Below, piece after piece: positions 1,272-33,796 of a stretch of 33,796 bases of DNA (positions within the stretch are counted from its first letter, which is position 1; the number at the start of each line of letters is the position of its first letter). The notes under the pieces are model-generated. The model ran no database searches. It was not told where the DNA came from and worked only from the letters and a program-made list of their open reading frames with translations. The translations under genes and the position numbers were made by a program. The DNA lies in the IMG/VR virus record IMGVR_UViG_3300021364_001294, positions 1-33,796 of that record; one strand, given 5' to 3'. This DNA is from a virus.

Positions 1272-1279
1272 CATAAATA
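1272..1279 (+). promoter_or_regulatory. T4-type late promoter box CATAAATA
   Basis: CATAAATA matches the T4 late -10 box TATAAATA at 7 of 8 positions. The last A is only 6 bases before the ATG of the superoxide dismutase gene, so a T4-like start site would fall on or next to that ATG, giving a leaderless mRNA. No Shine-Dalgarno sequence is visible. Confidence 0.6.
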
Positions 1280-1285
1280 TACAAG

Positions 1286-1843
1286 ATGTTAAAAGAATTG
1301 AAAGATTTTATTACAGAAGCAGAAAGAACAAGAGCAACACTTGTTTTGAATCCGTTACCATATGCACGTGATGCATTAGAGCCGGTGATGAGCAAAGAAA
1401 CAGTTGATCTACACTATGGTGTTCTTTCTAAAGGTTATGTTGATCGCTACAATAACAAAGAAGGCGATGATACATTTAACTATGGTGGTGCTCATTTGCA
1501 CAACCTATTTTGGGCTCATTTGCAGCCTGCTGTTTCAGGCAACAAACCATCTGGAGCATCTGAAGAACTTATTAATAAAAAATTTAATTCTTTTGATACG
1601 TTCAAAGAAAAATTCATAGAAAAAGCCAAACAGTTACAAGGAAGTGGTTGGGTGTATATGGACGTCAAAGGAAAAATTGACACAATACCTAATCAAGATT
1701 TTAAACGTGGAACTGAAATTGCTATGCTAGTTGATATGTGGGAACACAGTTATCTACTAGATAGTGATAAGAACAAATACTTGGATAACATTTGGCGAAT
1801 CATAAACTGGTCAATAGTCAACGACAGAATAACAGGAGAATAA
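1286..1843 (+). CDS. Fe/Mn-family superoxide dismutase with N-terminal capsid-targeting-like leader
   Basis: This enzyme should dismutate superoxide to O2 and H2O2. The 185-residue protein keeps all four metal ligands: His43, His72, Asp150 and His154 (VDMWEHSYLLD). Gly68 plus Gln137 in an NQD context match the arrangement of Mn-type enzymes, where the second-sphere Gln comes from the C-terminal domain. Tyr51, the gateway Tyr, is present, but the usual gateway His next to it is replaced (Leu47/Ser48). Residues 1-18 precede the normal domain start; MLKELKDFITEAE resembles the T4 internal-protein leader MKTYQEFIAEA, including an (I/L)xE cleavage site (ITE). It is first in an operon with the three following genes, behind a late promoter and with no visible ribosome binding site. 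Confidence 0.93.
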   Translation: MLKELKDFITEAERTRATLVLNPLPYARDALEPVMSKETVDLHYGVLSKGYVDRYNNKEGDDTFNYGGAHLHNLFWAHLQPAVSGNKPSGASEELINKKFNSFDTFKEKFIEKAKQLQGSGWVYMDVKGKIDTIPNQDFKRGTEIAMLVDMWEHSYLLDSDKNKYLDNIWRIINWSIVNDRITGE

Positions 1844-30435: not shown

Positions 30436-31125
30436 ATGCGAGATCTATTGGACAAATTAAAACAACTTGATGAAGGCTTTATGCCCAAGGAAATGGATGG
30501 CGAAGTAGAAGACTTTGAATTTACTGGTGATGACGGTGAAACTGGCTTCGGAACGCTGTACTACAAAGCACAAATCAAACAGAGCGATGAACACGGTTAC
30601 TATGCTGAAGTAGATCCTAAATCACTGAGAGGTGAATGCGAAGGCGACGGTAACAACAAACTAGATGATGAACTAGCAACTGATGTTGTCCAACCAGGTG
30701 CACTAGATCACGAAGCAGCAATGGATGCTGCATTTGAAGATGCAATGGATCAAATTAAGAACGCAGACATAGATGTCCCACAAGAAAGCATAGCAGACGA
30801 TTCCGATGAGCAAACATTTGAAGGTGAAGAGTTTTATGAGTATTACGGATATCTACCTTGGCACGAAGATTTACCAATAGACGAAGCAGAATACAGAGGA
30901 CGTAAAGTTCCACTAGGCAAGCCAATGCGCGGTGATGTTAAGAAGTTTAAAGTTTATGTTCGTGATCCGAAAACAAAAAATATTAAAAAAGTAAACTTCG
31001 GTGACCCTAATATGAAGATCAAGCGTTCTAATCCAAAGCGTAGAAAATCCTTTAGAGCAAGACACAACTGTGACAATCCAGGTCCAAGAACAAAAGCTCG
31101 TTATTGGTCGTGTAGAAAGTGGTAG
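30436..31125 (+). CDS. Conserved phage protein with acidic centre and basic C-terminal domain; possible capsid-associated
   Basis: 229 residues. The N-terminal 16 residues (MRDLLDKLKQLDEGF) form a short amphipathic helix with an LxE-G site of the type cut by T4 gp21 protease. Residues about 20-135 are strongly acidic. The C-terminal 80 residues are basic and conserved in style among marine T4-like phages (YRGRKVPLGKPMRGDVKKF, then KRRKSFRARHNCDNPGPR and ARYWSCRKW), with two Cys. The charge split and leader suggest a scaffold or internal head protein. No enzymatic motif is visible. Confidence 0.75.
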   Translation: MRDLLDKLKQLDEGFMPKEMDGEVEDFEFTGDDGETGFGTLYYKAQIKQSDEHGYYAEVDPKSLRGECEGDGNNKLDDELATDVVQPGALDHEAAMDAAFEDAMDQIKNADIDVPQESIADDSDEQTFEGEEFYEYYGYLPWHEDLPIDEAEYRGRKVPLGKPMRGDVKKFKVYVRDPKTKNIKKVNFGDPNMKIKRSNPKRRKSFRARHNCDNPGPRTKARYWSCRKW

Positions 31126-31131
31126 ATAAAA

Positions 31132-31467
31132 ATGAAACTAAATGAACTGTTTTCACCTATCGGAGCGCCTAAAGATAACGAAGATATAAATTGGGGCGAG
31201 GATCTTAAAGTTTTTATTGATAACGAAACTGACGTTATGAGTAATATACTCTTTCCTGCTATTAAAAAACATCAAGGGTATCCAGGACATCAAGATGCTT
31301 ATAAAATTTATATAAAGCCTATTCAACAGTGCAAAGAAATGTACTGCAATAAATTTAAGGTTGATCAACCTGAAGAAAAATTTCCTAAAGAATTAATAAT
31401 AAATCTAGCAAAACAAATTGCTAGTGAACAAGATGAATTTATTGGACGTGGCGACTATGAAGATTAG
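31132..31467 (+). CDS. Hypothetical protein in capsid-associated cluster
   Basis: 111 residues, acidic, with an N-terminus MKLNELFSP that resembles the leaders of neighbouring genes, though no obvious (I/L)xE cut site follows in the first 15 residues. The middle (MSNILFPAIKKHQGYPGHQDAYKIYIKP) is conserved-looking, and the C-terminus is helical and acidic. The 3' end overlaps the next gene by 11 bases. The function is unknown. Confidence 0.68.
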   Translation: MKLNELFSPIGAPKDNEDINWGEDLKVFIDNETDVMSNILFPAIKKHQGYPGHQDAYKIYIKPIQQCKEMYCNKFKVDQPEEKFPKELIINLAKQIASEQDEFIGRGDYED

Positions 31468-32086
31468 AGATCTTTTCGAACAAGACACAGATAAACACAT
31501 TACATTCTGCTTTGGCAGATTTAATCCGCCTACGCTTGGACATAAAAAATTATTTGATACTATGAAGTCACAAGGCGGGGATATGAAAATCTTTACAACA
31601 CAGTCACAAGACAGTAAAAAAAATCCTTTAGATTATGCAACTAAGGTAGACTTTCTTAGAAAAATTCACTCTGATTATGCAAACAACATTATAGAAAATA
31701 CTAATCTTAATACTATTACCAAAGTATGTGCAAGTTTATATGACGAAGGATATAGACACATAACTTTTGTTGCAGGAGATGATAGATTAGAGAATATGAA
31801 AAAACTAATTAAAGACTATAACGGAAAGACTGAAGGTAAAAAAGGACCATTAGAAGATACATATAAATTCGAAACAATGGATTTTGTAAGCGCAGGCGCT
31901 AGAGAAGATGGTTCAGACGGTGTTGAAGGTATTAGTGGAACTCTTGCGAGAGAAGATGCTGCTAATAATGATATTAAAAAGTTTACGAAACATACAGGAG
32001 CAGGAGAACACGCAGAAGAACTATTTGCTGCTGTAAGAAAAGGAATGGGATTATCAGATGAAAAACCAGAAGACGATCAAGAGTAG
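31457..32086 (+). CDS. Nucleotidyltransferase-fold protein with Alt-like N-terminal leader
   Basis: 209 residues from ATG 31457, chosen because the conserved part begins there; an upstream in-frame start at 31418 adds 13 residues inside the preceding gene. The HxGH-type motif is GRFNPPTLGHKKL (Thr-Leu-Gly-His), and ISGTLARED resembles the ISSTxxR motif, as in NMN adenylyltransferase and cytidylyltransferases. HITFVAGDDR is the central strand. The leader MKIRDLFEQDT resembles the start of T4 Alt (MELITELFDEDT), a packaged protein. The substrate is unknown. Its 3' end overlaps the next gene by 29 bases. Confidence 0.82.
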   Translation: MKIRDLFEQDTDKHITFCFGRFNPPTLGHKKLFDTMKSQGGDMKIFTTQSQDSKKNPLDYATKVDFLRKIHSDYANNIIENTNLNTITKVCASLYDEGYRHITFVAGDDRLENMKKLIKDYNGKTEGKKGPLEDTYKFETMDFVSAGAREDGSDGVEGISGTLAREDAANNDIKKFTKHTGAGEHAEELFAAVRKGMGLSDEKPEDDQE

Positions 32087-33101
32087 AGATCCAAACTGGA
32101 GAGATATGGAAGCACTGCGGAAGAGTGGTGCGGCAGGCTCGCATCGTGATAAGAAAAAAGAAATGAAACTAGGTAAAGTCAAACACAAGGGGAAAACAAT
32201 GGACGAATCTATCTACACAAATCCAGCGGGGGGCGAACTTTCCAGAATAGGAAGGATCCTGATGGACAAATCAGTAACGGTAAAGGACGATGCACTATCA
32301 AACGTGCTTGGTCGTGTCGGTGATGAACTCACACGCTATGGCGAAGCAGGTGGAGCAGCAAGTATCGACGAACTGTGCAAAAGAGCAAGATGCGATAAGA
32401 ATCAACTAATGAAGTTGATGAAATGGGCACAGCAACAAAAAGATACTTCATTACAAAAAGTTAAGGATCCAGATCCTAAACCAGAAGATGATGAAGACGA
32501 AAAAGAATCAATTGCTGCTGAAACTTCAATCGGACACGTAGATGATGAACGCCATATGATTCGTAAAGAATTATATCAACACGCAAAGTATGCTAAAGAA
32601 CTTTTCCAAATGCTAGATGACTTACCTGAAGACAGTGATTTCCCCCACTGGTGGCAGAGTAAAGTTACTAAAAGTTTGCAGATGTTGAGCAAGGCAAAAC
32701 ACTACCTAGAAAATGAACTAGCAGTTCCAGAAGCAACAGAAGAAAAGGATAACCAAGGATTCACTGATAAGGAAATCAAAATGGCCTTTGGTGTTCTAAA
32801 CGATCCTAGATACAAGGGCGGTAACTACACAGGTGCAGTGGAAGTAATTAACAAAATTGCTCCTGGACTAGCAGACCATCCTAGTGTTGCAAAAGCACTT
32901 AAGAAAACAAACGAAGCAGTATGTGCAGAGTGTGGAAAGCCTAGATTTGTTGCACTACCAGAAGAAATGCAAAAACAGTATGAAAGTGTAAACGAAGAAA
33001 AGCAAAAAGGCGTTGACGGCAAAGTATGCTGGAAAGGCTACAAGCGTATGGGCACTAAGAAAAAGGGCGGCAAGACTGTAGACAACTGTGTTAAGATGTA
33101 A
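32058..33101 (+). CDS. Conserved phage head-cluster protein with basic Cys-containing C-terminus
   Basis: 347 residues from ATG 32058. The N-terminal 50 residues are basic (SRDPNWRDMEALRKSGAAG, then HRDKKKEMKLGKVKHKGK) and the next 90 are a helical domain. An acidic stretch (PKPEDDEDEKES) leads to a helical section with HAKYAKELFQMLDDLPEDSDFPHWW, then CAECGKPRFVALPEE, a one-sided zinc pair. The protein ends in KGVDGKVCWKGYKRMGTKKK and DNCVKM, a tail often seen in marine T4-like phages. The function is unknown; several domains joined by charged linkers would fit a packaged or scaffold protein. Confidence 0.72.
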   Translation: MKNQKTIKSRDPNWRDMEALRKSGAAGSHRDKKKEMKLGKVKHKGKTMDESIYTNPAGGELSRIGRILMDKSVTVKDDALSNVLGRVGDELTRYGEAGGAASIDELCKRARCDKNQLMKLMKWAQQQKDTSLQKVKDPDPKPEDDEDEKESIAAETSIGHVDDERHMIRKELYQHAKYAKELFQMLDDLPEDSDFPHWWQSKVTKSLQMLSKAKHYLENELAVPEATEEKDNQGFTDKEIKMAFGVLNDPRYKGGNYTGAVEVINKIAPGLADHPSVAKALKKTNEAVCAECGKPRFVALPEEMQKQYESVNEEKQKGVDGKVCWKGYKRMGTKKKGGKTVDNCVKM

Positions 33102-33301
33102 TGGAGATAGAAGAGTTAAAAAGACTAGCGGGTATCTATGAACGTCACGGCTGGAAAGCATATGACGGACCCAATCTATCGATTACAGGCACAGAAAAAC
33201 AATATCTAGAAAAGAAGCACAACATACAACCAGGAACCCCTGAATGGTTTAAGTTGTGGTTCTCATTACCAAAACTAACAGGTGAGAAACCCGTAGAATG
33301 A
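33101..33301 (+). CDS. Small protein, unknown function, with leader-like N-terminus
   Basis: 66 residues. MEIEELKRLAGIYE is an amphipathic helix with an IxE site at residues 12-14; the remainder is basic and aromatic (HGWKAYDGPNLSITG, then TPEWFKLWFSLPKL). Its ATG shares a base with the preceding TAA (TAATG), and its stop overlaps the next gene's ATG (ATGA), so it is translationally coupled on both sides. No family is recognised. Confidence 0.65.
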   Translation: MEIEELKRLAGIYERHGWKAYDGPNLSITGTEKQYLEKKHNIQPGTPEWFKLWFSLPKLTGEKPVE

Positions 33302-33796
33302 GAGCATACGAGATCATATCTGAAAAAGCAGTAAGCAAAAAGCAGCAGCAGTTCTTTGGCATTGTAAGAGCAATGCAAAAGGGCGATATGAAGAAGAGTG
33401 GCGAAGCAGGCAAAGTTGCTAAGGATATGAAAAAGTCAGACGTAAAAGACTTTGCTAAAACCAAGCACAAGGGTTTGCCTACAAAAAAGAAAACTAACGA
33501 AGGTGCAGAAATAACCGTATATACGGATCCTTCCTATCAGGGTGCCACGCTGGATGACAAGTATTGGAGTTCAAAGCCTTCACAAAAAATAGATTTTGAC
33601 AAACTGGAACCATTTGAACCTGCGGACAAAATGAAGGCTAAAAAATCTGCGGACAATATGAAACGTTTTGTAGATAAAATCAAAGCAGGTGAAGAAATTA
33701 AACCCATCATAGTAACTCCCAAGGATGGCAAGTATCTCATACTAGATGGACATCACAGATACTTTGCGGCAAGAATAGCAAAAGTAGATTCAATGG
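33298..33796 (+). CDS. DUF3008-like domain fused to ParB/sulfiredoxin-type domain, 3' end outside window
   Basis: 166 residues are visible and the frame is open to the window end. Residues about 13-63 (SKKQQQFFGIVRAMQKGD, then KVAKDMKKSDVKDFAKTKHKG) match the pattern of the small basic DUF3008 proteins. Residues about 120-166 (KPIIVTPKDGKYLILDGHHRYFAA) match the core of ParB/sulfiredoxin-like domains, with DGHHR at 150-154. A linker with no clear pattern joins them. ParB-like domains in phages act as CTPases, nucleases or ADP-ribosylation-type enzymes. The N-terminus MRAYEIISEKA includes an IxE site like those of T4 packaged proteins. The ATG overlaps the preceding stop. Confidence 0.8.
   Translation, partial: MRAYEIISEKAVSKKQQQFFGIVRAMQKGDMKKSGEAGKVAKDMKKSDVKDFAKTKHKGLPTKKKTNEGAEITVYTDPSYQGATLDDKYWSSKPSQKIDFDKLEPFEPADKMKAKKSADNMKRFVDKIKAGEEIKPIIVTPKDGKYLILDGHHRYFAARIAKVDSM

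Follow-up and report, generated by a model that had tools for sequence, protein, structure and literature searches.

An Fe/Mn superoxide dismutase of PA5oct-type jumbo phages bears a T4-like leader and is probably packaged in the phage head

A superoxide dismutase (SOD) gene on a viral DNA fragment raises the question of where its product acts, in the cytoplasm of the infected cell or from within the particle. The DNA stretch analysed here in its entirety (the window) corresponds to a virus record of 33.8 kb (33,796 nucleotides; IMGVR_UViG_3300021364_001294), and its genes are similar to those found in jumbo myoviruses of the PA5oct type, which are related to T4. Roughly one in three predicted ORFs of the window has a match among PA5oct proteins (SOD, clamp loader, PhoH, ClpA and others). 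A first-pass annotation of this DNA had proposed that the SOD is directed into the virion by a capsid-targeting leader.

The ORF at 1286-1843 encodes an intact Fe/Mn-type SOD of 185 amino acids, the N-terminus of which reads MLKELKDFITEAERTRATLVLNPLPYARDALEP (features are compiled in Table 1). Pfam domains Sod_Fe_C (2.9e-21) and Sod_Fe_N (1e-11) were recognized from residue 21 onwards, the scores for PF00081 and PF02777 (45.6 and 75.9 bits) both exceed the cut-offs (27 and 20.9), and the fold corresponds to that of Fe/Mn SODs (Foldseek E 2.6e-14). AlphaFold modelled the core confidently (mean pLDDT 93) and placed residues 2-14 of the leader, at low confidence (pLDDT 65-78), as a separate helix outside the core. 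The metal ligands H43, H72, D150 and H154 (His, His, Asp, His) are invariant in 34 of 34 phage homologues. Fold and ligands are shared with cellular Fe/Mn SODs, whereas two further positions are replaced in the phage clade: the conserved second-sphere His of cellular SODs aligns with an invariant Leu47 (which we take to be the position of His30 in the E. coli SOD), and the Tyr174 position is occupied by Leu or Ala in most members. Judged from these residues, SOD activity of the phage enzyme is plausible, and its kinetics may differ due to the two replacements. Directly 3' of the SOD gene (1844-2000), a small, very lysine-rich and possibly DNA-binding protein with the C-terminus RGRPKKSK is encoded.

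Table 1. Coordinates of features at the SOD locus of the window
Feature	Position	Strand	Basis
Late promoter element of T4 type, CATAAATA, beginning 14 nt ahead of the SOD ATG	1272..1279	+	Position conserved in homologues
N-terminal leader of 18 residues, MLKELKDFITEAERTRAT, a proposed propeptide for capsid targeting	1286..1339	+	Homologue comparison, helix prediction
Proposed prohead-protease site, codons I9-T10-E11-A12	1310..1321	+	T4 L/I-x-E rule
Putative cut between E11 and A12	1316-1318 (E11), 1319-1321 (A12)	+	Sequence pattern
Fe/Mn SOD domain, residues 19-185	1340..1840	+	Pfam, ligands, fold

The 18-residue extension before the SOD domain, as originally described, was confirmed by comparison with bacterial and archaeal homologues, which mostly begin 1-3 residues before the equivalent point; the 13 residues first quoted as the leader are real, but constitute only a part of it. 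The proposed cut would separate MLKELKDFITE from AERTRAT. For an assessment of leader conservation, two IMG/VR scans for SOD homologues provided 65 distinct leaders, and a third scan, centred on a distant member, 59 more, with start codons assigned by a fixed rule, which took the most distant ATG no more than 32 codons away from the core. The motif [ILV]-x-E with a permitted next residue is present in 117 of these 124 phage leaders compared to ~25 expected from shuffling, these counts not being independent trials, since the best 80 hits per scan were sampled, the sequences are related and the starts were chosen by rule. The first set contains the motif in 61 of 65 leaders (shuffled mean 14, maximum 26; 2000 shuffles) and, if collapsed to 28 types, in 27 (6.4 shuffled), and the second sample in 56 of 59 (shuffled mean 11, maximum 20). 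The (I/L)xE cleavage pattern of gp21 claimed for the window leader is thus found there as I9-T10-E11 and, in the form [ILV]xE, is kept across phage leaders far above shuffled levels. The leaders themselves vary widely, from MKVNDFLTEA through to MGSLFEWIDLVED, MNQDIRKYINLFEA and MREHIDLVEASTRPAK, and those from the third scan combine a variable front part with almost constant residues past the site (EASTRPAK).

Among 77 bacterial and archaeal SOD homologues, the domain is preceded by fewer than 10 residues in 61, and the motif is present in one. Occurrence of the extension in SODs of free-living bacteria had been named as evidence that would speak against packaging, and its rarity there favours the packaging idea; restriction of the leader to phage forms holds insofar as most cellular SODs lack it and a single one carries the motif. 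The SOD could also be an ordinary late cytoplasmic enzyme that eases oxidative stress, with the leader as a structural extension (e.g. for oligomer contact or stability). Such an extension leaves unexplained why the leader front varies while [ILV]xE plus A/S persists, and most bacterial and archaeal homologues function without it.

SOD-bearing relatives are numerous, with at least 592 confirmed in one IMG/VR scan. In the phylogenetic tree, a branch with full support separates phage SODs from cellular SODs, on which basis a host origin of the leader was rejected; the exact tree positions of the PA5oct and Vibrio sequences are unsure due to their long branches. Vibrio phage 2.275.O was dismissed as a leader bearer, as its related SOD (L054:3968-4537) has no leader and in its place a C-terminal tail (MLDESVNIRHLINFISK), possibly another targeting end. 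The SODs in the 'phage' records MW462191 and CAKLQF020000002 (L281, L282) were treated as belonging to bacterial chromosome pieces, because their neighbours are ordinary bacterial genes.

In the T4 record, IPII and IPIII carry the leader MKTYQEFIAEA and IPI the leader MKTFKEFTSTTTPVSTITEA. The T4 prohead protease recognizes L/I-x-E, and residues 4 and 7 of the IPIII leader serve chiefly targeting, residues 8 and 10 processing (PMC9026906). These four residues (Y4, F7, I8, E10) correspond to L5, F8, I9 and E11 of the window leader at equal spacing, shifted by one; of the likeness in length asserted by the first-pass annotation, the spacing agrees, while the window leader exceeds the IPIII leader by one residue. 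Of the 28 types of phage SOD leader, 24 show T4 spacing, either exact or with two extra residues before E, versus a mean of 2 and a maximum of 7 in shuffled types (2000 shuffles), a descriptive count, since the rule of two added residues was set after the leaders had been seen. The phage SODs accordingly resemble IPI, IPII and IPIII, which belong to a class with N-terminal propeptides of 10-19 residues, in their short N-terminal leader, hydrophobic residues at targeting spacing and L/I-x-E at the leader end, as well as in the gp21-type protease encoded by SOD-bearing relatives. They differ in cargo, a conserved Fe/Mn SOD versus IPI, IPII and IPIII, and in that packaging and cleavage are demonstrated in T4, whereas the SOD leader is known here from sequence. 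T4 IPI counters a restriction enzyme; the roles of IPII and IPIII, to our knowledge, remain open.

No head genes were detected in the 33.8 kb window fragment. Two SOD-bearing contigs (G021 and G023; 238 and 199 kb) harbour a head cluster in T4 gene order, comprising portal, gp67-like protein, gp21 (PF03420), scaffold and gp23 (PF07068), all of which match PA5oct; the latter also encodes gp21 (EST35_0152; E 5e-24). Of 23 large contigs with a SOD gene, 7 encode the T4-type prohead protease gp21; among the further large ones, the count is 5 of 13. No gp21 was found in contigs of the window's closest clade, which is known from fragments only, so that we infer its presence there; for the phage's own protease, to which the original proposal referred, counterparts were located in SOD-bearing relatives, not in the window. 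PA5oct relatives are T4-like and devoid of a phage nucleus; the leader was rejected as an import signal for the jumbo-phage nucleus, as MIJ3 and Callisto lack nucleus genes (PMC6892783, PMC11079468).

Removal of the leader by the prohead protease is likely, to judge from the pattern. In a different arrangement, the leader would stay uncut and anchor the SOD to the scaffold or shell of the virion, or the protein would be an uncleaved structural head protein. An uncut anchor is compatible with the predicted separate helix and with the different residues on which targeting and processing of T4 IPIII rely (PMC9026906); conservation, however, is centred on the protease pattern, gp21 occurs in relatives, and the invariant metal ligands would be unneeded in a purely structural role. 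Retention without cleavage is regarded as very improbable.

The late promoter originally placed just upstream of the SOD gene is indeed found there, and its position is fixed across homologues. By its sequence, NATAAATA is a T4-type late promoter; the window contains 7 copies, all on the + strand and each just upstream of a + strand gene, and none on the - strand. Just upstream of homologous SODs, it was detected in 38 of 73 and 49 of 74 distinct upstream regions, lying 12-15 nt from the start codon in almost all cases (background 0.7% per 60 nt). Distances between NATAAATA and start codons (window 1272 and 30015; L257-L278) fall into a sharp 12-14 nt peak and a broad 24-39 nt class, the latter accounting for 11/38 and 11-13/33 in two genomes. 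At a distance of only 12-14 nt, the mRNA would have almost no 5' leader. The short-distance class includes several head proteins and leader-bearing proteins.

Evidence relating to virions is available for PA5oct, the EST35_0261 protein of which is a SOD homologue. Its N-terminal sequence is YISIAEAASSVK and the proposed cut lies between MNDSIKKYISIAE and AASS..., after E13 and before A14; the leader is quoted as MNDSIKKYISIAEA or MNDSIKKYISIAEAASS. The SODs of the Pseudomonas phages PA5oct, MIJ3 and Callisto (annotated as hypothetical protein or sodB) are homologous to the window SOD (36% identity at 95% query coverage) and share the leader MNDSIKKYISIAEA; they differ by a late-type promoter element further upstream of the start codon and by His in place of Gln at window position 137. 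The GenBank entry of EST35_0261 lists the product as 'hypothetical protein' with the note 'ESI-MS/MS'. Structural proteomics was carried out for PA5oct (PMC6950013), and the note in the GenBank record is read here as detection in purified virions, which, taken alone, is suggestive of a virion SOD. It is attached to 93 of 445 PA5oct coding genes, including those for ribonucleotide reductase, thymidylate synthase, GTP cyclohydrolase and DNA ligase, several of them encoded near SOD, so that carry-over of cell protein is possible. These clearly metabolic enzymes agree with a cytoplasmic SOD, the PA5oct detection of which would then be carry-over, as does the interpretation of phage-borne Fe/Mn SOD as a stress-buffering gene (PMC12542629). 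The scaffold-like protein of PA5oct bears no ESI-MS/MS note, as expected if the protease degrades the scaffold. An LxRLAG-type motif is located at the end of this protein (84724-85830; EELRRLAGIK) and also at the start of the window gene 33101-33301 (EELKRLAGI).

Unrelated proteins in SOD-bearing genomes display similar starts, namely MKTFKEYLAEG (PA5oct homologue MS-flagged), MRAHEFITEA, MKISELLVES and MRINDILIES. The starts MKTFKEYLAEGKK and MKSLKDYLTESQ belong to homologues of an MS-flagged PA5oct protein with a weak match to the PHROG 'virion structural protein'. These leaders on unrelated proteins, together with the T4-like spacing, are likewise left unexplained by a structural extension, and a purely cytoplasmic SOD is considered unlikely overall. 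A crude leader pattern predicts the MS flag weakly in PA5oct (9/93 flagged versus 14/352, p=0.03; second version 7/93 versus 14/297, p=0.21) and was rejected as a means of predicting virion proteins in general; its N-terminal enrichment is significant in one of two genomes only. Since a simple pattern separates virion from non-virion proteins poorly, a general leader-tag system in these genomes is proposed here as a hypothesis. Further leader-like starts in the window (30436-33795) are MKIRDLFEQD (~31454), MRAYEIISEKA (33298) and MKLNELFSPIGA (31132).

Packaging of the SOD is supported by the phage-specific leader, the conserved cut pattern, the T4-like spacing, gp21 and gp23 in SOD-bearing genomes, the late promoters and the MS flag in PA5oct. 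The virion location put forward in the first-pass annotation is thereby well supported, though indirectly, the MS flag being recorded for one homologue, that of PA5oct. In the preferred scheme, the gene would be transcribed late to yield a SOD precursor, the amphipathic N-terminal leader of which would act as a T4-type capsid-targeting sequence and draw the enzyme into the core of the assembling prohead. The gp21-type protease would then cleave between E11, the leader glutamate, and A12, and the mature head would retain the SOD. If the enzyme is released into the next host, it may shield the DNA or the newly infected cell from superoxide. Phages of this group thus probably carry SOD inside the particle, and its entry into the head specifically via a T4-type leader is rated as likely, on balance of the evidence. 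A more tentative proposal, to which somewhat less than even chances are assigned, is that a widespread group of T4-type jumbo phages generally loads ready-made enzymes, SOD included, by a short cleavable N-terminal tag, and that these enzymes enter together with the DNA, so that superoxide is removed ahead of any phage gene expression.

The earlier statement that no capsid-delivered SOD had been described does not apply to viruses in general: according to a review passage, the Cu/Zn SOD (A245R) of chlorovirus PBCV-1 is made late and incorporated into the virion (PMC7019647). It shares with the present case a virus-encoded SOD, late expression and the virion location, and differs in its unrelated Cu/Zn family and eukaryotic host; a T4-type cleavable leader is not described in this passage (PMC7019647). 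No report of a phage-packaged SOD was found in the open-access literature, which omits most subscription papers. Already known are hence the T4 internal proteins and the virion SOD of PBCV-1, to which an Fe/Mn SOD with a T4-type leader is added here.

If true, packaging of the SOD would carry the principle of T4 internal proteins beyond anti-restriction functions to an antioxidant enzyme, and points to sequence-based prediction of phage enzymes that are carried in the particle. Phage SODs, so far interpreted as host-stress genes, would be given a different place and time of action.
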